Assembly: GCA_035948415.1 (NCBI GenBank)
Contig: DASZJD010000067.1
Span: forward strand, 1 to 38,527
Origin: Acidimicrobiia bacterium
Lineage (GTDB): Bacteria > Actinomycetota > Acidimicrobiia > IMCC26256 > PALSA-555
Length of the DNA stretch: 38,527 nt
Direction of reading: 5' to 3'
In this document: in pieces, positions 27,124 through 38,527 of the stretch
Layout: each line of letters begins with the position of its first letter
Position numbering within the stretch: position 1 is the first letter of the stretch
Made by a program: the position numbers and the translations under genes
Notes under the pieces: generated by a model
What the model was told of the DNA's origin: nothing
The model's input: the letters and a program-made list of their open reading frames with translations, nothing else
Databases searched by the model: none

Positions 27124-27496
27124 GGGGGCGGTGGCCTTGCACGCCAAACCGGTCTACAACCCGTGAGCGCGACGAGACTCGCCTCGGCCCCGACCCGGTT
27201 GGCTCAAACGGTGTCGGAGGGGGGACTCGTCGAGCGGCGCTACGCGGTGCAACTGACTCGAACAGCCCGGCGAGCGGCTTGACGGCCCCAGGTCGGCCCT
27301 CGGGCACTCCACGATCCAACTCACGCTCGGACCGCTGCGGACACCTCTTCGGGGCCACGACGGGGCACTCCTCCAGGCCCTGGACGGCACCTACGAGGAA
27401 GCTCGTGCGTCCGATCCGTCTCCTCCGCCGGCGATCGCACCGTGGATACGAGCACCCGACCCCAGAAAGAGGCCGCCTGAGCTGGGGAAACGCTCG
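27124..27496. other. Gene-free stretch before the tRNA-Gly fragment
   Basis: About 370 bases with no supported gene. The plus-strand frame that crosses it ends in the antisense of the tRNA fragment and is not coding. It contains copy 2 of the tRNA-3'-like repeat. No promoter or hairpin stands out. Confidence 0.45.
27212..27229 (-). repeat. tRNA-3'-end-like direct repeat, copy 2
   Basis: TGTCGGAGGGGGGACTCG matches copy 1 at 24671-24688 with a single mismatch. On the minus strand it ends as ...GAGTCCCCCCTCCGACA, like the T-stem and acceptor end of a tRNA. The two copies enclose the hydrolase and TetR genes. No further tRNA arms can be folded here. Confidence 0.35.
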
Positions 27497-27539
27497 AGCG
27501 GACGACGGGACTCGAACCCGCGCCCCTCACCTTGGCAAG
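27497..27539 (-). other. 3' half of tRNA-Gly (GCC), putative attachment site
   Basis: The minus strand reads CTTGCCAAGGTG (anticodon loop with GCC), then AGGGG, the T-arm GCGGG-TTCGAGT-CCCGT and the acceptor 3' strand CGTCCGC plus discriminator T. The 5' half (acceptor 5' strand, D-arm, 5' anticodon stem) is absent from the upstream 40 bases. A tRNA 3' half without its 5' half is the usual scar of an element integrated into a tRNA gene. The orientation places chromosomal DNA to the left and the inserted element to the right, with the intact tRNA expected beyond its other end. CCA is not encoded. Confidence 0.7.
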
Positions 27540-27553
27540 TCGGTCCTGCCAAG
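27531..27553. repeat. Inverted repeat at the tRNA-Gly anticodon region (core-type site)
   Basis: CTTGGCA-agtcggtcc-TGCCAAG is a perfect 7-bp inverted repeat with a 9-bp spacer. One arm is the anticodon loop of the tRNA fragment. Tyrosine integrases bind such core-type repeats flanking a 6-8 bp crossover, commonly in anticodon loops. Supports the att-site reading. Confidence 0.55.
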
Positions 27554-27616
27554 TCTGGGATCAGGGTCGATCCGTCAAAAACCGCAAGTCAGCAGTCTGC
27601 GTGGTGACATCTGATC

Positions 27617-27666
27617 ATGCCTGGTGATGCCTGATCCTGGGTCGTTGTGGCACGAATGTGGCACGA
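27617..27666. repeat. Direct repeats next to the att-like site (arm-type candidates)
   Basis: TGTGGCACGA occurs twice (27646-27655 and 27657-27666) with an 11-bp period, about one DNA turn. ATGCCTG occurs twice just before (27617-27623, 27627-27633). Short phased direct repeats 60-130 bp from the core are typical of integrase arm-type or excisionase binding sites. No integrase gene is found in the following 400 bases. Confidence 0.45.
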
Positions 27667-27695: not shown

Positions 27696-27944
27696 TCAGT
27701 GCATCTCCTCGCGCTTCCGCGCCACGTCGTGGGCGAGCCGCGTTTGCCGAAGTCCGAGGCGGCGAAGAGCTGAGAGCACGCCCCGTGGTCGCCACCAGCG
27801 TCGGGAAGTGTCGACGCCGAATTCCCCTCGGAGCTGAGCGCGCTCGTCCGCCCAGCCCTCGAGATGGGGGCGGGCGAGTTCGATGTCCTCGACGCCGATG
27901 TAGGGATGGGCCGGAAAGGTCGGCTTCGTGATCCCTGCCACCAA
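27696..27944 (-). CDS. Small hypothetical protein beside the att-like site
   Basis: An 82-residue frame with GTG start whose translation looks protein-like rather than shadow-like: HPYIGVEDIELARPHLEGWA, then DERAQLRGEFGVDTSRRWW and a basic tail. I recognise no family. No convincing ribosome-binding site precedes it. It could be a small gene of an integrated element or a fragment. The rest of 27540-28065 holds no other candidate gene. Confidence 0.3.
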   Translation of the reverse strand: MVAGITKPTFPAHPYIGVEDIELARPHLEGWADERAQLRGEFGVDTSRRWWRPRGVLSALRRLGLRQTRLAHDVARKREEMH

Positions 27945-28065: not shown

Positions 28066-29610
28066 TCAGCGGGACGTTGCGTTCGCCTTGAACGTCGACA
28101 GTTTGACGGCGCTAAAGAACGCGCTCCGGTCGCCGGGCCGGTAGTCGGCCCAGGCAATGAACGCGTAGCTGCCACTGAGGCTCAAGAACGAGAAGTCGTC
28201 CCCGACCCCGAAGGGGAGGAACTCCTGCGGCGCCGGCGATTCGGCCTTGCTGATCTGCAGTGGCGCGTTGAAGGTCGCGCCTCCGTCATCGGATGTTGCC
28301 GCCCACACGTTGTAGGGAGACGGTGGCCCCGCCGCTTGGTCGGCGACCTCGCCTGCCGCCTCTCGGGGCGGTACCGCGGGCAAGCCGCCTGACGCGGTGG
28401 GTCCGCGCGTCACGTTCGTCTGCCACATGAGACCCAGGACGCCTGTCGGTGAGTAGGTGAGCCACGGATGGAAGTGGGTCTTGGTCGCATCCTCGGCGAC
28501 GATGGTCGGCCCGGTCCACGTCGTTCCGGCGTCACGCGTCTGGTACACGACGAACTGCGTCCCCGTGGGGTTCAGCCCGGCGACGGCGAAATGCCCCGAC
28601 GTCGAGGGATCGGCCGCCACCAGCGGCGCACTGGTGGATCCGGCCGCAACCGGGAGCACATGGCGTGACCATGTCGCGGCCGCATCGGTCGTCGTCTGGA
28701 AAACGGTGCACGACGCCCTGCCACCGCACAGGCCGGCGTTCGTCGTCGCGAACGCAGTCGCGAAGACGCCGCGGGCGGCGGAGACGAAGGTCCCCGGCGG
28801 GAACGCGGCAACGCCGCCGAAGGGCTTCGGATCCGACCAGTGCCGGCCGTCGCGCGACGCGACGAGCCACCGGTCGTTCCCGGGACCCCCGATCGGCGAG
28901 GGCGGGAGGTTCTGATCGGCCTTCGAGTTCGCTCCGAGCGCTCCCGTGCTCGTCTCGTAGATCATGCCGGTCGAGAGGTCGGCGGCGAAGAACGGTCGAT
29001 CGACCGGTGTGCCAGTCAGCACCGGCTTGCTCCAGGTCCGGCCGCCATCGGTCGACTTGCTCACCGCGATGCCAGCGTCGCGGATGATGGTGGTGGGCAG
29101 GTTGGCGAAGTGGATGTCGTCCCACGCGAGGTAGAAGGTTCCATCGGGGCCGGCGGTGATGAGCGGGTCGCCCCGCTCGACCAGGTCCGTGTGGCCCGGC
29201 GGGAAGGCGGGAACGTCGGCGGACCGACGCCATGTCTTGCCCCGGTCGAGCGACACGTAGACCCGCACCTGAGAGAAGGCCGGGACATCGTCGATGAGAC
29301 CCCGCGGCTGGGGCGCGTAGGCCGTGTTCACCCCCTGACATGCGGGACGGTTCGCTCGCTGGCATGCGTAGGTCGTCCCCATCGTCAGGACCGCGTAGAC
29401 GAGGTGGTTCGGGTTCTTCGGGTCGATCGCGATCTCGGGCTCGCCGTAGCGATGCGCCGGGTCGTTGCTGACGTTGACTTCGGTCGGCGACCCCGCCGCC
29501 CCTGACGTCGGCGACGCGCCGACTGGTGCCGAGGACGCGACGACCGGCACGGTTACGGCGAGCGCGGCGACCAACGTGACCCAACGACCGACACTGCGAG
29601 GCATTGACAT
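28066..29610 (-). CDS. Secreted BNR-repeat (sialidase-like fold) protein
   Basis: 514 residues with a signal peptide (basic start, hydrophobic LVAALAVTVPVVASSAPVGA) and a six-bladed beta-propeller marked by Asp-box repeats: SLDRGKTW, STDGGRTW, TRDAGTTW and SDDGGATF, at intervals typical of BNR proteins. Sialidase-like exo-hydrolases share this architecture, but the arginine triad of true sialidases is not evident, so it may be a non-enzymatic or different glycan-binding propeller. It acts outside the cell. It is the rightmost-to-left transcription unit downstream of a TetR gene; the 93-base gap contains two overlapping palindromes and tandem octamers, suggesting its own regulated promoter. 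Confidence 0.82.
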   Translation of the reverse strand: MSMPRSVGRWVTLVAALAVTVPVVASSAPVGASPTSGAAGSPTEVNVSNDPAHRYGEPEIAIDPKNPNHLVYAVLTMGTTYACQRANRPACQGVNTAYAPQPRGLIDDVPAFSQVRVYVSLDRGKTWRRSADVPAFPPGHTDLVERGDPLITAGPDGTFYLAWDDIHFANLPTTIIRDAGIAVSKSTDGGRTWSKPVLTGTPVDRPFFAADLSTGMIYETSTGALGANSKADQNLPPSPIGGPGNDRWLVASRDGRHWSDPKPFGGVAAFPPGTFVSAARGVFATAFATTNAGLCGGRASCTVFQTTTDAAATWSRHVLPVAAGSTSAPLVAADPSTSGHFAVAGLNPTGTQFVVYQTRDAGTTWTGPTIVAEDATKTHFHPWLTYSPTGVLGLMWQTNVTRGPTASGGLPAVPPREAAGEVADQAAGPPSPYNVWAATSDDGGATFNAPLQISKAESPAPQEFLPFGVGDDFSFLSLSGSYAFIAWADYRPGDRSAFFSAVKLSTFKANATSR

Positions 29611-29703: not shown

Positions 29704-30297
29704 TCAGCCGTCGACTGCGGGCGTCAACCGATTCGCTGCGAGCTCGTTGTTCGTCGTGAGGCGGAACAGCGTCCGCTCGAGGATCGGCAGGACATCGACG
29801 AAGGCGATCTCACCGTCTGCGAACCGCGCGATCACTGCTCGAACAACGTGCCCGTGGATCAGCTCCACATCTTGCAGGTACTCCGGGTTCGCCTCGGGCA
29901 GTGCTGCCTCCATGATCGGCTTGACGATCGCCAAGCCGTGGGCCACCAATCGGTCGCCACTCGCGCTCGTCATCGCCCGGTGGTAGGCCTCCAACATGCG
30001 CGGGTGTCGTTTCCACGGCTCGAACACCGTGCGGAGGACGCGCACCATCGTCTCGTACGGCGTCTCGTCGGGCTCGGGCATCGTGAGCCCCGAATAGGCA
30101 TTGGCGTCCATCCATCGCTCCATCGCCGCGACGATGAGTTGGTCGCGCGTCCCGAACAGCTTGTAGATGGTGGCGAGCGAAACCCGCGCCCGACTGGCCA
30201 CGGCGCGCACCTGGACCGCGTCGTACCCGTCGGATTCCAGCAGATCCAGGACCACGCCGATGATCGTGTCCGCCCGGTCCTCGGAAGGTTGTCTCAT
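29704..30297 (-). CDS. TetR family transcriptional regulator
   Basis: A 197-residue regulator. The helix-turn-helix region reads DTIIGVVLDLLESDGYDAVQ, then VRAVASRARVSLATIYKLFG and TRDQLIVAAMERWM. This YKLFGTRDQL pattern resembles the KstR group of lipid/steroid-responsive regulators in actinobacteria, but the resemblance is not enough to name it. The C-terminal domain (about 70-190) carries EPWKRHPRMLEAYHRAM. It is the third gene after the PPOX and crotonase genes (47-base gap), so it is likely part of that unit, and may control it and the flanking BNR and HyuB genes. Confidence 0.85.
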   Translation of the reverse strand: MRQPSEDRADTIIGVVLDLLESDGYDAVQVRAVASRARVSLATIYKLFGTRDQLIVAAMERWMDANAYSGLTMPEPDETPYETMVRVLRTVFEPWKRHPRMLEAYHRAMTSASGDRLVAHGLAIVKPIMEAALPEANPEYLQDVELIHGHVVRAVIARFADGEIAFVDVLPILERTLFRLTTNNELAANRLTPAVDG

Positions 30298-30344: not shown

Positions 30345-31061
30345 TCAGTCGTCGCGCGCGTCCCGCCACTCGTCGGCTGCCTGGCGTTCGAGTGCGAGGG
30401 CATCCTCGAAGGTGAGGCCGTTGGCGCGGCGGTAGAGGGCGGCCTGACGTCGTACGACTGCCTGGTCGTGCACCCGGATGGTCTGTGCGAGCTCGTACGT
30501 CCGCGCTAACAAGTCGTCGTGCGGTACGAGGTGGTTGACGAGTCCGATGCGTGAGGCCTCGTCGGCGTCGATGAAGGTGCCGGTCAACGACAGCTCGACC
30601 GCCTTGCGGCGTCCGACGGCCGTGGGGAGCGCGGCGCTCATGCCCCAGCCGGGCATGAGTCCAGCCTTGGCGTGCGTGTCGGCGAACCGGGCCTGGTCGG
30701 AGGCGACAATGATGTCGCAGGCGAGCGCGATCTCGAGCCCCCCCGTGATGCACACGCCGTTCACGGCCGCGATCGTTGGCTTCACGCAATCGCGCACTGC
30801 CACCGCAGGGTTCACGCGCTTCGGAGGCCCGCTCGGCGACTGGATCTCCTTGAGGTCCACGCCGGCGGAGAAGCTGGGGTCGGCGCCCGTGATGACGACG
30901 ATGTCGATGGCGTCGTCGTCGCTCGCGCTGGTGAATCCGTCCCTGATCCGTTCGCGCATCACGAGGGACATCGCGTTGCGGACCTCGGGCCGGTCGATCG
31001 TGATCGTACGGATGCCGTCGGCATCGCCGATCCTGACCGTGTCGATCGCCTCGTCGCTCAT
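30345..31061 (-). CDS. Enoyl-CoA hydratase/isomerase family protein (crotonase fold)
   Basis: About 238 residues. The oxyanion-hole segments are present: FSAGVDLKEI and AAVNGVCITGGLEIALACDI, the latter with the first catalytic Glu. The position of the second hydratase Glu reads FADTHAKAGLMPGWG, with His at the expected place, a variant seen in many actinobacterial crotonases whose reaction is unproven. Isomerase, hydrolase or hydratase chemistry on an acyl-CoA is therefore open. I choose ATG 31061 because it makes an ATGA overlap with the upstream PPOX gene; a longer in-frame start at 31088 exists. It probably works with the divergent acyl-CoA genes. Confidence 0.87.
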   Translation of the reverse strand: MSDEAIDTVRIGDADGIRTITIDRPEVRNAMSLVMRERIRDGFTSASDDDAIDIVVITGADPSFSAGVDLKEIQSPSGPPKRVNPAVAVRDCVKPTIAAVNGVCITGGLEIALACDIIVASDQARFADTHAKAGLMPGWGMSAALPTAVGRRKAVELSLTGTFIDADEASRIGLVNHLVPHDDLLARTYELAQTIRVHDQAVVRRQAALYRRANGLTFEDALALERQAADEWRDARDD

Positions 31062-31516
31062 GACAGCTCGACTCTCGCGTTGTCCCACGTGAGGATGCGG
31101 TCGTCGGGCACGACCTCGAACGTCACGCGCCCCGGTGAGTCGTAGGCGGATCGGGTCTTCTCAGGCATGTTCGAATGCTTGGTTCGGTACCGGTCGTACT
31201 TGGCATCGAGGGCTTCACGTACCCGGCGCTTCGTGTCTTCGTCGGTCACCTCGCGCGCGCTTCCTGTCACGAGGACTGCTTTGAGCTCGCGCCAGTACGT
31301 CCCTGACTCGACGAGGAAGGAGCAGCGTGGGTTTCGGCGCAGGCGCGTGATCTTCTTCGTACGGGCCGGCGCGCTGAAGTAGATGCGCGCGTCGAAGGTC
31401 ACGAACCACATCGGCAGTGTGATCGGCGTCCCGTCGGCCTTCAGGCTGGTGAAGATCCCGGTGTGCGCGCCCGCGAGCTCGTCCCAGGCCTCTTCTCTCG
31501 AGAGCCGGATGCTCAC
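31058..31516 (-). CDS. PPOX-class flavin/F420-dependent oxidoreductase
   Basis: A 152-residue split-barrel protein of the pyridoxamine-phosphate-oxidase-like class: GIFTSLKADGTPITLPMWFV, IYFSAPARTKKITRLRRNPR, CSFLVESG, LKAVLVTGSAREV and a C-terminal VTFEVVPDDRILTWD. Many actinobacterial members bind F420 or FMN and reduce small substrates. The Lys-rich TKKITRLRRNPR matches the cofactor-phosphate region. First gene of the minus-strand unit PPOX-crotonase-TetR, translationally coupled to the crotonase by ATGA. Confidence 0.83.
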   Translation of the reverse strand: MSIRLSREEAWDELAGAHTGIFTSLKADGTPITLPMWFVTFDARIYFSAPARTKKITRLRRNPRCSFLVESGTYWRELKAVLVTGSAREVTDEDTKRRVREALDAKYDRYRTKHSNMPEKTRSAYDSPGRVTFEVVPDDRILTWDNARVELS

Positions 31517-31633: not shown

Positions 31634-33454
31634 ATGACGTACGTCGACATGGTCCGCCTCGCCGGAAGCCGGGGCCGCCTGAACGAGCAGCCCACCGTCG
31701 ACCCCGTCACCGCCGAGGTCGTCCGCGGCGCGATGGAGACGATCTGCTTCGAGATGGCGGAGTACGTGTCCCGCACCGCGACGAGCCCCATGATGAACCA
31801 GAGCAACGAGCGGAACGCGACGATCCTCGACGCCCAGGGGCGCCTGGCGGCGTTGTCGGTCGGGATCCCGCAGTTCATGCTCACGTCGACCCTGCCGGTG
31901 CGGTTTGCACTCGAGTTCTTCGGCGACGAGTTCCACGAGGGCGACGTGTTCGTGGCGAACGACCCGTACCACGGTGGTGGCCACCTGCCCGACTACAACG
32001 CGTTCGCGCCGATCTTCGCCGACGACGGCAACGGGGGACGGCGCATGGTGCTGATCGCCAGCATCCAGTGCCACCACGGAGACACGGGTGGCGCCGTTCC
32101 GGGCGGTTACAACGTGACCGCGACCGACATCTGGGGTGAGGGCGTGCGCTGGCCAGCCGTGAAGGTCGTCGACCGTGGCGTCGTGCGCCGGGATGTGCTG
32201 TACGCGCTCCAGACCAACAACCGCGCTCCGGACTATATCGGTGACCTGCGCGCCCAGATCGGGGCGGCGCAACTCGCCGCGCAGCGACTCAGCGATGTCA
32301 TCGAGCGTTACGGCAGCAAGATCGTCGAGGAATCGGTCGACTTCATGATCGACTACGCCGCGAGGCGCTTCCGGGAGGAGGTCGCCAGCTGGCCGGATGG
32401 CATCTACCAGGCGGACGCCTACGTCGACCACGATCCGCTCGGCAACCCCGACGTGCACCTGCACGTCCAGATCACCGTCGACGGCGCGAACCTCACCATT
32501 GACTTCACCGGCTCCGACACCCGCCAGGACCTCCAGGCATGGTCGACGTTTGGGAACACACGCGGCTACACCGTGGGGCAAATCGCCGCCATGATGGACC
32601 CCGAAATCCCGAAGAACGAAGGCTTCTTCGACCAGATCAAGCTCGTCGTGCCCCAGGGATGCGTACTCAACCCGACACCGGGCAAGCCGGTGAGCGCGGG
32701 AACCCATCACCCGGGGGCCGATGTCGGTGAGGTGATTGCGCTCGCATTGGAGGAAGTGCTGCCGGACAAGGCCGTCCCGCAGGTGTACAAGACGGGGATA
32801 CCCACGATCATCGTTGGCGTCGACCCGCGAAGCGGTGAGACGTTCACCGACCACTCGGCCGAGGTGTACGCGGGCTGGTGCAACGCGGCCAAGGGCATGG
32901 ACGCCTGGGGCGCGCAGGCCGCTGCGTTCGGGAACCTGTGGAAGGCAACCGCGGAGATCAACGAGTGCCTCTACCCGCACATCCAGTGGTCGCGCGATTA
33001 CCGGATCGACTCCGGGGGGCCCGGCCAGTGGCGGGGCCTCTGCGGTAGCCACTACGAGAAAGAGGTGCTCGTCGACGCGAAGGTCTACACCTACGTCGTC
33101 GGCATGAAGTACCCCATGTCGGGGATCTGTGGGGGGAAGCCAGGGGCACCCAATGAGCTGGTCATCCGCTACGGCTCCGACGATCCGTATCGCGTGCAGC
33201 ACACTGCCGACTGGGTCCCGATCGGGGCCGGGCAGCGGGTGATGTACGACTACGGCGGTGGCGGCGGTTGGGGGGACCCGCTGGCGCGTGACCCGCACGC
33301 AGTGCTCGACGACGTGCTCGACGAGTACGTCAGCGTCGAGGCCGCCGAACGCGACTACGGCGTCGTGCTCACCGGGTCGCTCGAGGACCTCACCCTTGCC
33401 GTCGACCCGGAGGCCACGCGAGCGCGGCGCCTCCGCCGTGACGCCACCGCCTGA
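31634..33454 (+). CDS. Hydantoinase B/oxoprolinase family protein (HyuB-like)
   Basis: A 606-residue HyuB-type protein. Visible family blocks are VDPVTAEVVRGAMETICFEM near the N-terminus, SVGIPQFMLTS, FVANDPYHGGGHLPDYNAFA, the His-rich CHHGDTGG, IDFTGSD, and near the C-terminus RIDSGGPGQWRGLCG and YDYGGGGGWGDP. The family forms the B subunit of ATP-dependent hydantoinases, oxoprolinases and acetone/acetophenone carboxylases, normally beside HyuA. No HyuA gene is adjacent here, so the enzyme must find its partner elsewhere or act differently. GGGGGA three bases before the ATG is close but usable. First gene of an operon with acyl-CoA dehydrogenase and acyl-CoA synthetase genes, 27 bases apart. 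Confidence 0.9.
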   Translation: MTYVDMVRLAGSRGRLNEQPTVDPVTAEVVRGAMETICFEMAEYVSRTATSPMMNQSNERNATILDAQGRLAALSVGIPQFMLTSTLPVRFALEFFGDEFHEGDVFVANDPYHGGGHLPDYNAFAPIFADDGNGGRRMVLIASIQCHHGDTGGAVPGGYNVTATDIWGEGVRWPAVKVVDRGVVRRDVLYALQTNNRAPDYIGDLRAQIGAAQLAAQRLSDVIERYGSKIVEESVDFMIDYAARRFREEVASWPDGIYQADAYVDHDPLGNPDVHLHVQITVDGANLTIDFTGSDTRQDLQAWSTFGNTRGYTVGQIAAMMDPEIPKNEGFFDQIKLVVPQGCVLNPTPGKPVSAGTHHPGADVGEVIALALEEVLPDKAVPQVYKTGIPTIIVGVDPRSGETFTDHSAEVYAGWCNAAKGMDAWGAQAAAFGNLWKATAEINECLYPHIQWSRDYRIDSGGPGQWRGLCGSHYEKEVLVDAKVYTYVVGMKYPMSGICGGKPGAPNELVIRYGSDDPYRVQHTADWVPIGAGQRVMYDYGGGGGWGDPLARDPHAVLDDVLDEYVSVEAAERDYGVVLTGSLEDLTLAVDPEATRARRLRRDATA

Positions 33455-33481: not shown

Positions 33482-34645
33482 ATGGACCTGAGCCTCTCTC
33501 CCGAGGAGCGGGCCTTCGCGGCTGAGATCCGCTCGTGGCTCGACGCCAACCTCGAACTCCCGCCGCCGTTCGCGTCGCTCGGCGAGGAGATCGAGTGGGG
33601 TCGCGCGTGGCAGGCGAAGCTCGCGCGTGACCGCTGGGTCGCGATCCACTGGCCGGTGGAGTTCGGCGGCCGGAGCGCGTCGCCGGTCCAGGTCGCCGTC
33701 TTCAACATGGAGTACGCCCGCTCACGGGCGCTCCAGCCCGTGAACCGCAACGGGATCAACCTGGCCGGTCCAACGCTGCTCGCCCACGGCACCGACGAGC
33801 AGAAGCGTCGCTGGCTGCCACCGATCCTCGACGCGCGCGAGATCTGGTGCCAGCTCTTCAGCGAGCCCGGGGCCGGTTCCGACCTCGCGGGGCTGTCCAC
33901 CCGTGCCGTGCCCGTCGAGGGAGGCTGGCTCCTGTCGGGCCAGATGGTGTGGACGAGCTACGCGCAGTTCGCCCGCTGGGGGATCTGCCTGGCGCGGACC
34001 GATCCGGATCTGCCGAAACACCGGGGCCTCTCTTACCTCATCGTCGACATGCACGCCGACGGCCTCGAGATTCGGCCGCTCACCTCAATCACGGGCGAAG
34101 CGGAGTTCAACGAGATCTTCCTCGACGAGGTGTTCGTCCCCGCCGATCACCTCGTCGGCGCGCTGAACCAGGGTTGGGCGGTCGCCAACACGACCCTCGC
34201 GCACGAGCGCGGCACGGCGTTCCCGTTCAAGGAGCAGGTCGTCCACGAGGTGTACCTCGACGAGCTGTACTCGCTCGCCGACCGGAGAGGCATGCTGGAC
34301 GACGTCGCAACCACCGATGCTCTCACCCAGGCTTTTGTCGAACTGCGCGTGCTTCGGCTGCACAACTGGCGCACGCTGTCGCGGCTCGCCCGGGGCGAGC
34401 AGCCCGGCGCGGAGTCGTCGTGGGTGAAGCTCGCCTGGACCGACATGACCCAGCACCTCTCCGAGGCCGGTCTCGAGCTCACCGGCGAGGCGTCGCCGCT
34501 GTGGCACGGTGCGGACGGGCTTTCCGCTGGCGGCCGGTGGCAGCGGCAGTGGCTGTGGAGCAAGGCGGCCTCGATCGCCGGCGGCACCTCCGAGATCCAG
34601 CGCAACATCATCTCCGAGCGGATCCTCGGGCTCCCCCGGAGCTGA
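33482..34645 (+). CDS. Acyl-CoA dehydrogenase
   Basis: A 387-residue FAD enzyme of normal length. The FAD/substrate signature QLFSEPGAGSDLAGLSTRAV lies at about 124-143, followed by WTSYAQFARWGICLARTDP. The C-terminal flavin signature GGTSEIQRNIISERILGLPR ends the protein. It introduces a 2,3-double bond into an acyl-CoA and passes electrons to ETF. The FadE-like sequence (LARGEQPGAESSWVKL, DMTQHLSEAGLELTG) resembles actinobacterial forms acting on side-chain or unusual acyl-CoAs; the specific substrate is unknown. Second gene of the HyuB-ACAD-synthetase operon. Confidence 0.92.
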   Translation: MDLSLSPEERAFAAEIRSWLDANLELPPPFASLGEEIEWGRAWQAKLARDRWVAIHWPVEFGGRSASPVQVAVFNMEYARSRALQPVNRNGINLAGPTLLAHGTDEQKRRWLPPILDAREIWCQLFSEPGAGSDLAGLSTRAVPVEGGWLLSGQMVWTSYAQFARWGICLARTDPDLPKHRGLSYLIVDMHADGLEIRPLTSITGEAEFNEIFLDEVFVPADHLVGALNQGWAVANTTLAHERGTAFPFKEQVVHEVYLDELYSLADRRGMLDDVATTDALTQAFVELRVLRLHNWRTLSRLARGEQPGAESSWVKLAWTDMTQHLSEAGLELTGEASPLWHGADGLSAGGRWQRQWLWSKAASIAGGTSEIQRNIISERILGLPRS

Positions 34646-34664
34646 CGGCCGCGCGCTTGCGCCG

Positions 34665-36182
34665 ATGACACGCCACCTCCGAGCGACCTACCGGCACCCC
34701 GACGCTCGTGCGTACCGCGCTCCCGGTGCGCCGTGGGACGTCCCGTCGCTTGACGCGCTGCTGACGACCGCAGCGGCCGGCGCTTCCGGGCCGCTCGTCG
34801 GTGACGACACGACCGACGCAGCGCTCGGGGGAGCCGCGCTCGAAGACCAGGTGGCGGCGGTCGCGGGCGGGTTACGGACCGAGGGGGTCCGACGGGGTGA
34901 CGTGGTCGCGTGGCAGGCGCCGAACCGCTCCGAGGTCGTGCTCCTCTACCGCGCCTGCTGGCGTCTGGGCGCAGTCGCCGCGCCGCTGCACCACCAAGCC
35001 GGTTCGTCCGACGTCGATCGGATGCTCGGGGTGCTGACGCCACGGCTCTGGCTGCCCCTCGACGAGGTCACGGCACGGGTCTCCGCGTTCGCGGCCGGAA
35101 GCGACTCGGTTCGGGTCTCGGCCGCGCGGCCGTCGGACCTCGCCGTCGCCCTGTTCACCTCCGGCTCGACGGGTGAACCCAAGGCTGTACTGCACACCCA
35201 CCGCGCCCTCTCCTACAAGGCGAGAACGATGGCCGCGGTGCACGGGCTCACACGCGCCGACGCGGTGCTCATGCCGGCACCGATGGCCCACATCTCGGGT
35301 CTGTTGAACGGGGTGCTGGTCCCCGGAGCCGTGCCAATGTCTGCGCGGTTCATGACGAGGTGGGACCCGGAGCAGGGGCTCAAGCTCATCGAGCACGACC
35401 GCATCACCTTCATGATCGGCCCGAGCACTCTGTTCGTATCCCTACTCGACGCCCCTCGCTTCACCACTGAGCGCGTGGAGAGCCTTCGTCTCGTGTCGAG
35501 CGGCACCGCCGGCGTTTCACCCGCGTTCATCGATGACGCAAGCGCGCGACTGGGTGCCTTTGTCAAGCGATCGTACGGGTCGACCGAGGCGCCGACCGTG
35601 ACGACCACCCACGCCGGAGACCCCGCCGGGCGAGGCCGTGACACCGACGGGCGATCCACTGGCGCGGCGCAGCTCCGGATCGCCGATCCGGTGACGGGAC
35701 GCGAGCAAGCACCGAACGATGTCGGTGAGGTCTGGCTGCGCGGTCCCGAGCTCTTCGCGGGCTACGCCGACGTCCAGCAGACCCGCGCTTCCGTGGCCGG
35801 CGGCTGGCTCCGAAGCGGGGATCTCGGCACCGTCGACGCGGCGGGCTGGCTCACGATCGTGGGACGCATCAAGGACGTGATCATCCGCGGCGGTGAGAAC
35901 ATCGCTGCGCGCGAGGTCGAGGCCATCCTCGAGGCGCATCCGGACGTGCGCCACGCCGTCGCGGTCGGCAAGCCCGATGGGCGGCTCGGTGAGCTGGTGT
36001 GCGTCTTTGTGGTGGCGAGCCAGCCCTTCGACCTCGATGACTGCCGGCGTTGGTTCGAGCAGCGCGGCGTCGCCCGCTACAAGACACCCGAACGGCTGGT
36101 GCAGGTCACCCACTTGCCGCTGCTCGCCGCGGGCAAGGCCGACCGCGCCGCGCTCCGCGATCGCGCCGCCGCACTCGGATGA
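34665..36182 (+). CDS. AMP-forming acyl-CoA synthetase
   Basis: A 505-residue ANL-superfamily adenylating enzyme. The motifs appear in order: the P-loop LFTSGSTGEPKAVLHTH (about 163-179), KRSYGSTEAPT, GEVWLRGPELFAGY, WLRSGDLGTVD, VGRIKDVIIRGGENI, and the catalytic Lys491 in LLAAGKADRAALR. It activates a carboxylic acid to its CoA thioester, feeding the acyl-CoA dehydrogenase and crotonase next to it. I choose ATG 34665, 19 bases after the dehydrogenase stop; an upstream in-frame start lies inside that gene. The substrate class is not deducible. Confidence 0.91.
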   Translation: MTRHLRATYRHPDARAYRAPGAPWDVPSLDALLTTAAAGASGPLVGDDTTDAALGGAALEDQVAAVAGGLRTEGVRRGDVVAWQAPNRSEVVLLYRACWRLGAVAAPLHHQAGSSDVDRMLGVLTPRLWLPLDEVTARVSAFAAGSDSVRVSAARPSDLAVALFTSGSTGEPKAVLHTHRALSYKARTMAAVHGLTRADAVLMPAPMAHISGLLNGVLVPGAVPMSARFMTRWDPEQGLKLIEHDRITFMIGPSTLFVSLLDAPRFTTERVESLRLVSSGTAGVSPAFIDDASARLGAFVKRSYGSTEAPTVTTTHAGDPAGRGRDTDGRSTGAAQLRIADPVTGREQAPNDVGEVWLRGPELFAGYADVQQTRASVAGGWLRSGDLGTVDAAGWLTIVGRIKDVIIRGGENIAAREVEAILEAHPDVRHAVAVGKPDGRLGELVCVFVVASQPFDLDDCRRWFEQRGVARYKTPERLVQVTHLPLLAAGKADRAALRDRAAALG

Positions 36183-36475: not shown

Positions 36476-36892
36476 TCAGCTGTCCGGTCGGTCGTGCAAC
36501 GACGGGGTGTAGCAGACGGCGACCAGCAGGCCCTCCGGGCTCAACAGCCGAGCGGTGACTTGAGCCCATGGCTCCGTGCGGGCCTCGTGGATGAGCCGGT
36601 AGCCCTTGGAGGTGAGCTCGGCGGCGGCGGCCGCGACGTCAGCGACCTCGAACTCGATGCTGGCCTGCGGGACCGCGATGTCGGCGGGCCATTCGCTGCG
36701 GCCGAAACAGGCGCCAGCCGCCTCCGAGAGGGGCCACAGCCCGAAGTGCTTCGCCCCTTCCAGCTGGTGGGTAAATACGTAGTCGCCCTCTTGGCCCTCA
36801 AACGACAGACCCAAGGCGTCCCGGTAGAACAAGCGAGCCGCGTCAGTGTCTCGCACGATCGGGGCAACGCTGGCTATGAACTGGACATCCAT
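36476..36892 (-). CDS. VOC (glyoxalase/bleomycin-resistance) family protein
   Basis: A 138-residue vicinal-oxygen-chelate protein: FIASVAPIVRDTDAARLFYR, DALGLSF and HQLEGAKHFGLWPL in the first beta-alpha-beta module, then ASIEFEVADVAAAAAEL and LLSPEGLLVAVCYTP in the second. Metal ligands are not unambiguous. The family includes glyoxalases, dioxygenases and resistance-type binding proteins; function here is open. The start at ATG 36892 is supported by GGAGG about nine bases upstream; a longer reading from 36991 is rejected. It is divergent from an AraC-type regulator, its probable controller. Confidence 0.82.
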   Translation of the reverse strand: MDVQFIASVAPIVRDTDAARLFYRDALGLSFEGQEGDYVFTHQLEGAKHFGLWPLSEAAGACFGRSEWPADIAVPQASIEFEVADVAAAAAELTSKGYRLIHEARTEPWAQVTARLLSPEGLLVAVCYTPSLHDRPDS

Positions 36893-37065
36893 CGGCTTCC
36901 ACCTCCGGGTGCTCTTGTTTCGCGGGTTTATCTTGTGATATCGGCGGTGACCATCGCTGGCCACCCAAAGACGGGTGCCAGGCCAGGCCATCCACGCAGG
37001 AGCAGGTCGCCGCAGAGGTCCTCGACTCGGACGGTCGAGATGCTCGCGGGCTGTTCCATGATCGA

Positions 37066-37791
37066 ATGATCCTGCGCGAGGCTGGAGTGGTCTTGAACGA
37101 ATCGGACATCTACTGGGAGTGGGCTCCGCCGGAGGCGTGGCGCGAGGTGGTGGCTTGTTGCTGGGAGCAGCGCGTTCACGCCGACCGGGTACAGCGCGTG
37201 CTGCCAGATGGTCACGCCGATGTGCTCCTCTTCGGATCGGGTGCAGTGGAGCTGGTTGGCGTCTACGACCATGTGGCGTTGCCGGTGCTGCCGCGTGGGA
37301 CCTTGATCCGTGGCATCAGGTTGCGACCCGAGGCCATCGCGTCCGCCTTTCGTCTCGAAGCATCCGAGCTGCGCAACGTCACCGTGCCCGCCGAGGATGT
37401 GATGGGGCCGCGGGATGCACGACGCCTGCGAGACAGCCACGCCGTAGACGCGTGGATCCGCTCAATCACACCCGACCGGCGTACCGCCGCGGCCATCGAG
37501 CTGCTCCAATCGGAATCGGTGGAAGGCGCCGCCCGACAGCTCGGCATCTCGCCGCGACAACTGCAACGCGACATGGTGGCCAACGTTGGGCTGACTCCAA
37601 AGGTGCTGCAACGTGTGATGCGTATGCAACGCTTCCTTGACCTCGCAGGCCATCGGGGTGAGCTCGCTGCGGCTTCAGCCGATGCCGGCTACGCCGATCA
37701 GTCGCACTTGACCCGCGAGGTGCGCGCCCTGAGCGGGCTCACCCCAGCGCGCCTGCTCGCCGACCGAGCTCGTCCGACACGCTCGAATTAG
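37066..37791 (+). CDS. AraC family transcriptional regulator
   Basis: A 241-residue regulator. The N-terminal part (about 1-115) begins YWEWAPPEAWREVVACCWEQ and includes VLPDGHADVLLFGSG and RGIRLRPEAIASAF, the sensor type often found in front of AraC domains. The C-terminal AraC domain (about 140-235) contains VEGAARQLGISPRQLQRDM and AASADAGYADQSHLTREV, the two helix-turn-helix units. It probably controls the divergent VOC gene. The start is uncertain: ATG 37066, or GTG 37087, which has GAGG five bases before it and loses only MILREAG. Confidence 0.87.
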   Translation: MILREAGVVLNESDIYWEWAPPEAWREVVACCWEQRVHADRVQRVLPDGHADVLLFGSGAVELVGVYDHVALPVLPRGTLIRGIRLRPEAIASAFRLEASELRNVTVPAEDVMGPRDARRLRDSHAVDAWIRSITPDRRTAAAIELLQSESVEGAARQLGISPRQLQRDMVANVGLTPKVLQRVMRMQRFLDLAGHRGELAAASADAGYADQSHLTREVRALSGLTPARLLADRARPTRSN

Positions 37792-38085
37792 CACGCGAAT
37801 TCGTACGTCCTCCGGTGCGTCGCCTGCGACCCGCACCAACAATGGCGGACCGGCACTGATCACACCCAGATTCACCGGGTAGCACCGCTGCCCGATCCTG
37901 GAGTGCAGCGTGCCGAGGTGGCACTTCTCCACCCAGGCGTGCAAGGACACCCGACCTCCTCACTACAAGCGGCAGCGCCCGATCACCTGGCGATCACAGC
38001 CACGAGAACGACGCTGCCCCTCGCTAGCTGGCTCCGTATCCTTATCGTCGCTCGCCGAGTGGCATTTCCGACCTGGAGGCACGCG
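37792..38085. other. Intergenic stretch before the last VOC gene
   Basis: About 290 bases without a supported gene. A minus-strand frame across it (HLGTLHSRIGQRCYPVNLG and neighbours) is protein-like in places but overlaps the AraC gene's 3' end and has no ribosome-binding site; I could not assign it. The promoter of the downstream VOC gene should lie near its right end. Confidence 0.35.
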
Positions 38086-38451
38086 ATGGGACACAAGGCA
38101 AGCGTGGAGCTCGTGCTCGACTGTGCAGAGCCGAAGAGGCTCGTGAAGTTCTGGCGCGAGGCGCTCGGCTATCACGACTACTACACGGATGCGAATTTGG
38201 CTGTGCTCGTTCCCAAAGAAGGGGTCGCTTCACCGCTCCTTCTTCAGGGCGTACCCGAACCCAAAGCCGGCAAGAACCGCATGCACCTCGACATTGTGGT
38301 CGACGACATCGAAGCCGAGATCCACCGGCTGCAGGGACTCGGCGCTCATCGCATCGACGAAGGCGTGCAGAGCTTCGGGGAAACCCGATGGGTCAGAATG
38401 TCGGACCCCGAGCAGAATGAATTCTGCGTCTCCACCGGAGTCGAGTGGTAA
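38086..38451 (+). CDS. VOC family (glyoxalase-like) protein
   Basis: A 121-residue protein of the glyoxalase-like domain: VELVLDCAEPKRLVKFWREA, LGYHDYYTDANLAVLVP, then MHLDIVVDDIEAEIHRL, LGAHRI, RWVRMSDPEQNEFCVST. The histidine and glutamate pattern (HLDIVV and EFCV) fits the actinobacterial glyoxalase-like subgroup of unknown substrate. GGAGG six bases before ATG 38086 decides the start; longer in-frame readings from 37903 have no support. It stands alone at the right end; the last 76 bases of the window hold nothing I can identify. Confidence 0.85.
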   Translation: MGHKASVELVLDCAEPKRLVKFWREALGYHDYYTDANLAVLVPKEGVASPLLLQGVPEPKAGKNRMHLDIVVDDIEAEIHRLQGLGAHRIDEGVQSFGETRWVRMSDPEQNEFCVSTGVEW

Positions 38452-38527
38452 AGGCTTGATGCTGCGGGCACCATCCAAGGCTCCGCTGCCTCCCGTCTTC
38501 CGGTGAAGCGCCCCCCGCGAACGGCGA

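Follow-up and report, generated by a model that had tools for sequence, protein, structure and literature searches.

A probable remnant of a tyrosine-integrase element between an intact tRNA-Gly(GCC) gene and its displaced 3' half in an Acidimicrobiia genome

Introduction

What leaves only the 3' half of a tRNA-Gly(GCC) gene beside an inverted repeat and phased tandem repeats? The question is raised by positions 27494-27666 of the window analysed here, the entire contig C67 (DASZJD010000067.1; 38,527 bp) of an Acidimicrobiia bacterium whose genome comprises 3.4 Mb in 133 contigs. An initial annotation read the arrangement as the trace of a tyrosine integrase, at one end of an integrated island extending to the right. 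We conclude, with a probability of about 0.88, that 27494-27666 is the attachment site attR at one end of a tyrosine-integrase element that entered the anticodon-loop site of tRNA-Gly(GCC) and has since decayed to a cargo island. An event of this kind is well known and is seen here from both ends: an intact tRNA gene and a displaced fragment bracketing an island form the standard signature used by Islander, which also requires an integrase (PMC4383910), and tRNA fragments from such insertions are well documented (PMC9897764).

The half tRNA and its intact counterpart

The features that define the two ends are the following:

27494..27539, minus strand: 3' half of tRNA-Gly(GCC), spanning anticodon loop to CCA position, probable attR core; 44/46 identity to C121:297-372
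27531..27553: inverted repeat CTTGGCA / TGCCAAG with 9 bp spacing, putative left core-type site and anticodon-loop half; left side CTTGGCAGGAYCGA kept in the independent element L141
27646..27666, minus strand: pair of putative arm-type integrase sites with a period of 11, lying on the element side of the core (TCGTGCCACA on the minus strand); compare L141 and the viral attachment site L143
27540..38527: window part of the probable integrated element, which ends at joined position 38682, adjoining the intact tRNA-Gly at 38683-38758 (minus strand)
38387..38527: assembler overlap of 141 bp, shared without mismatch by the end of the window and the start of contig C121

The half (CTTGCCAAGGTGAGGGGCGCGGGTTCGAGTCCCGTCGTCCGCTCGA, 27494-27539, minus strand) is the sole tRNA-Gly(GCC) sequence at the locus, as had been claimed, and ARAGORN detected no intact tRNA in the window. 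Its start had been placed at 27497, which left out the CCA; the true start is 27494. Used as a BLAST query, the half gave matches of 76-89 bits at two further sites of its own genome. The only intact tRNA-Gly(GCC) of the genome is C121:297-372, from which the half differs solely by T to G in the variable loop and C to G in the encoded CCA. An identical repeat of 40 bp had been anticipated; the repeat found spans 46 bp and is near-identical (44 of 46) rather than identical.

Once C67 and C121 are joined through the 141-bp overlap, the intact tRNA, a minus-strand gene, falls at 38683-38758, with 156 bp separating it from the end of the window; strand and side are those on which the initial annotation had proposed to look for it. 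The interval between this gene and the half is 11,142 bp. An assembly artefact, in which sequences of different strains were joined by the overlap and the real right end is at another place, draws on the fact that the assembler broke here and the graph must have branched, but the 141-mer is present in the assembly solely at these two contig ends and the join yields an intact tRNA at the predicted place and orientation; this explanation is very unlikely. At the other end of the window, positions 1-141 coincide exactly with the beginning of contig C63 (reversed), so that C63, C67 and C121 appear to be consecutive.

With Islander's anticodon-site (A) class the locus shares an intact tRNA gene, a displaced 3' fragment downstream in the same orientation and a crossover placed in the anticodon loop, where the identity between phage-type and bacterial attachment sites (attP and attB) begins. 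Its 11,142 bp fall within the 2-200 kb range of that method. The C67 interval has no integrase and would be rejected by the Islander filter, and it is therefore described as the remnant of an island rather than as an intact one.

Attachment-site architecture

The two sides of the inverted repeat lie at 27531-27537 (CTTGGCA) and 27547-27553 (TGCCAAG). Taken by itself the repeat was rejected as a significant feature, being too short at 7 bp; it was accepted as a candidate left core site because it recurs in an independent element of another actinobacterial genome (L141) as CTTGGCAGGAYCGANTTGCCAAGG, and on this comparison the inverted repeat is judged to be conserved. The tandem repeats, described earlier as lying about 100 bases away, consist of TGTGGCACGA copies at 27646-27655 and 27657-27666, with a period of 11 and 107-127 bp from the half tRNA. 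Judged as a lambda-type attP, in which direct-repeat pairs of ~11-12 bp flank the core, the P side is present (27646-27666) and the P' side is absent. Rfam scans of the window and of the local region returned nothing but a chance sX13 match.

A search for two GTGCCAC units followed by the core retrieved L141 and a single 26-kb virus contig (L143). In the latter the attP is complete: its tRNA-Gly core is flanked on both sides by a GGTGCCAC pair, and an integrase lies nearby. Since the same arm and core layout occurs in both, the tandem repeats are best read as integrase arm sites and 27540-27666 as the probable element end (attR), which agrees with the attachment layout first proposed. This arm type is rare, the pattern being absent from all of 394 further genomes of the class. 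The search also matched sequences in Rhodobacteraceae, Prevotella and Bacteroidaceae, which were discounted as probably fortuitous; the one in Rhodobacteraceae lacks the tRNA core after TTGCCAAGG. In the virus contig (G061, IMGVR_UViG_3300036791_000625), integrase matches were observed at both contig ends, as though a circular genome had been cut open within the gene.

The architecture, rather than the particular repeat sequence, is more widespread. When arm sites were defined as a direct repeat of at least 9 bp with a period of 10-13, located within -150 to -60 of the core, they were found at 5 of 15 halves and in 0.75% of random stretches; the corresponding binomial value of 6e-8 is overstated, owing to partial relatedness among the halves and to a GC-rich pair among the five. 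Halves in relatives carry repeat pairs of differing sequence, with periods of 11-12 bp, at 94-132 bp from the core, and period-12 pairs are present at 7 of 20 halves, mostly at -105. Among 31 core-bearing viral contigs, the start of an integrase is often found 17-150 bp beyond the core, and the integrase of a viral attP usually stands on the side destined to adjoin the intact tRNA; here, that side holds a glyoxalase gene and no arm repeat. Mycobacteriophage L5 integrates at tRNA-Gly. Paired 11-bp arm repeats have been described for actinobacteriophage attP sites, and the ~11-bp pairs on the arms are shared with temperate phages of Cluster K, which, unlike the C67 element with its one armed end and no phage genes, have an integrase and arms on both sides (PMC3203893).

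Island content and flanks

The genes of the interval within the window are:

27696..27944, minus strand: 82-amino-acid open reading frame (ORF) beside the putative arm sites; no Pfam or PHROG match
28066..29610, minus strand: BNR/sialidase-like repeat protein (Pfam BNR_2), probable cargo
29704..30297, minus strand: TetR-family regulator, probable cargo
30345..31088, minus strand: enoyl-CoA hydratase/isomerase (crotonase)
31058..31516, minus strand: PNPOx-like flavin protein
31634..33454, plus strand: hydantoinase B (HyuB), solitary extra copy without HyuA
33482..34645, plus strand: acyl-CoA dehydrogenase
34509..36182, plus strand: AMP-binding acyl-CoA ligase, whose true start is probably downstream of 34639
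36476..36991, minus strand: glyoxalase-superfamily protein
37066..37791, plus strand: AraC-type regulator (HTH_18, DUF6597)
37903..38451, plus strand: glyoxalase-like protein, the final gene ahead of the intact tRNA

The BNR, crotonase, HyuB, dehydrogenase and synthetase genes that had been named as possible cargo all lie inside the interval. The GC content of the ~11,142-bp element is 67.6%, compared with 70.1% to its left and 72.5% to its right. A native hyuB-hyuA locus exists on contig C80, with gene order conserved in G001, and the island HyuB is a second, distinct copy; in the tree, the C80 and G001 proteins are sisters (support 97/95), while the island HyuB falls outside the pair and its nearest relative is not resolved. 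The best matches of HyuB, the dehydrogenase and the ligase are scattered from one another in the relatives examined, and the crotonase and PNPOx-like pair also occurs at a different location in G007 (70-72% amino acid identity).

No integrase had been visible to the initial annotation, and a whole-genome search with PF00589 found none on C67 or C121, while the Pfam hits of the interval included no other recombinase. Comparison of six interval ORFs and one left-flank ORF with PHROGs revealed no phage structural or replication genes: the TetR regulator alone matched, weakly, families of unknown function, and the remaining ORFs had metabolic or regulatory Pfam hits. The interval also differs from actinobacterial integrative and conjugative elements (AICEs; PMC3218068), in that no integrase, Rep/Prim-Pol or FtsK-like Tra domain was present among its genes. 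The tRNA-Gly integrase of G019, used as a probe, had no match in this genome. Several integrases elsewhere in the genome were considered as candidates and rejected: those on C132 and C42 are XerC/D-like in appearance, those on C39 and C133 were not seen near tRNA-Gly, and the one on C81 lies at a tRNA-Met.

On the upstream side of the intact tRNA, C121 has the same gene order as C115 of G001, the sole same-genus genome compared, with most proteins at ~71-88% amino acid identity, and this flank is conserved chromosome. Downstream of tRNA-Gly, the genes differ in each relative compared. Together with the intact tRNA on the right, this syntenic upstream and variable downstream arrangement upholds the earlier placement of the element to the right. 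No support was found for a correspondence between the left flank and the sequence downstream of tRNA-Gly in relatives; this flank is instead loosely collinear with C105 of G001 (GH38 at 65%). Two results would have spoken against an island, namely relatives colinear across 27.5 kb and the lack of a second 3'-half copy downstream; no relative with uninterrupted gene order there was found, and the second copy exists.

The half might be a chance or gene-conversion fragment, with ordinary chromosomal genes to its right, and an interval without recombinase would fit such an origin. The exact anticodon-loop boundary, the correct orientation to the intact copy, the arm sites common to viral and other actinobacterial attachment sites, the lower GC content and a HyuB that is not sister to the native copy all argue against this explanation, which is highly improbable.

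A tRNA-Gly hotspot in the order

The search for further halves in the order excluded intact tRNAs; by design it misses about one quarter of halves, as well as those with more anticodon stem or with core mismatches, and it missed the known halves of C67 and G001. With this search, 11 halves were identified in 9 of 58 genomes, and the halves of relatives begin at or near the same anticodon-loop base. Integrases were found near tRNA-Gly or its halves in G003, G005, G019, G039, G045 and G052. In G019, an entire element of ~9.5 kb with an integrase lies between an intact tRNA and a half, and its long ORF looks, by eye, like a MobF-type relaxase. Stacked halves occur in G019, G039 and G005, and tandem arrays are known in actinobacterial integrative and conjugative elements (PMC3218068). 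The genome studied here has a second 3' half of tRNA-Gly(GCC) at C57:27005-27060 (L002), which shares the tRNA site and anticodon-loop boundary of the window. Its element end matches halves of G005 (another genus; contigs C23 and C49) at 86-96% over ~100 bp and does not match the window, indicating a differing element family. tRNA-Gly(GCC) is thus a recurrent insertion hotspot in the order of this bacterium.

Smaller intervals were also recorded. Positions 2522-4103 of L129 (G005:C23) hold a minimal element, in which two tRNA-Gly halves are separated by ~1.5 kb that includes an integrase gene. Loci L054, L056 and L055, in three other genomes of the order, contain tRNA-to-half or half-to-half intervals of ~1.3-2.7 kb without detectable integrase; the integrase-less tRNA-to-half intervals measure ~2.1 kb in G015, ~2.7 kb in G029 and ~1.3 kb in G039.

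Proposed history of the island

Strand exchange by a tyrosine integrase would have taken place within the 7-bp loop TTGCCAA, with the TGTGGCACGA pair binding the N-terminal arm domain of the enzyme and CTTGGCA acting as the core-type site on the left. The copy carried by the element would thereby have taken the place of the gene's 3' half, restoring an intact tRNA-Gly (38683-38758), and the original chromosomal half would have been displaced to 27494-27539, 11.1 kb away. The cargo may have arrived with the element; integrase and tRNA-side arm sites would have been lost later, through deletion or replacement by a second element at the same tRNA, leaving a fixed island of metabolic cargo. Four observations weigh against this history: no integrase, excisionase, relaxase or phage gene was found in the 11.1 kb, no matching arm repeat was seen at the tRNA-side end, no empty site with matching flanks was seen in the one same-genus genome compared, and the C67-C121 join rests on an assembler overlap rather than on reads.

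It is because the tRNA-side end has only a glyoxalase gene and no arm repeat, and neither contig has an integrase, that the locus is read as a remnant. The initial annotation had offered either decay or an integrase at the far end; the armless tRNA-side end favours the former, and the latter found no counterpart on C121. The missing arm repeat also means that the two ends possibly derive from different insertions. In a composite version of the decay scenario, successive elements entered the same tRNA-Gly and an intervening deletion removed the inner half and all integrases, so that the left end belongs to an older element and the tRNA-side end to a younger one. The armless end, the stacked halves of relatives and the C57 half, which implies at least two insertions in this genome and whose end is up to 96% identical to G005 halves, favour it, but a third core remnant is absent from the 11.1 kb; we regard this special case as tentative, at somewhat less than even odds.

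Mobilisation in trans is possible, although less likely than decay. A satellite would never have needed its own integrase, since the enzyme of another tRNA-Gly element or of a phage would recognise the satellite's arm and core sites and move it. The intact arm sites at the left end and the integrase-less intervals of G015, G029 and G039 are compatible with this, but arms at both ends are as a rule required for a usable element and are missing from the right end, the half carries two mutations, and the same cargo was not found at tRNA-Gly elsewhere, so that a satellite origin is unlikely. The broader proposal that the order harbours a class of metabolic satellites which have no integrase but retain arm and core sites, and which depend for their movement on integrases supplied in trans by unrelated tRNA-Gly elements or phages, is slightly less likely still. 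We favour an island that has decayed and is possibly composite, located at a tRNA-Gly hotspot of the anticodon type. This marks out a metabolic region of 11 kb, apparently acquired by horizontal transfer, in an actinobacterial genome that is otherwise unannotated. It also shows that the end of an element can be recognised after integrase loss by tandem 11-12-bp repeats close to a tRNA half, a signature that helps to find islands missed by integrase-based searches.

A separate observation concerns contig C81 (L018) of the same genome, where a phage-type tyrosine integrase (1147-2118) ends ~20 bp from a convergent intact tRNA-Met(cat) (2137-2210), probably representing another island.
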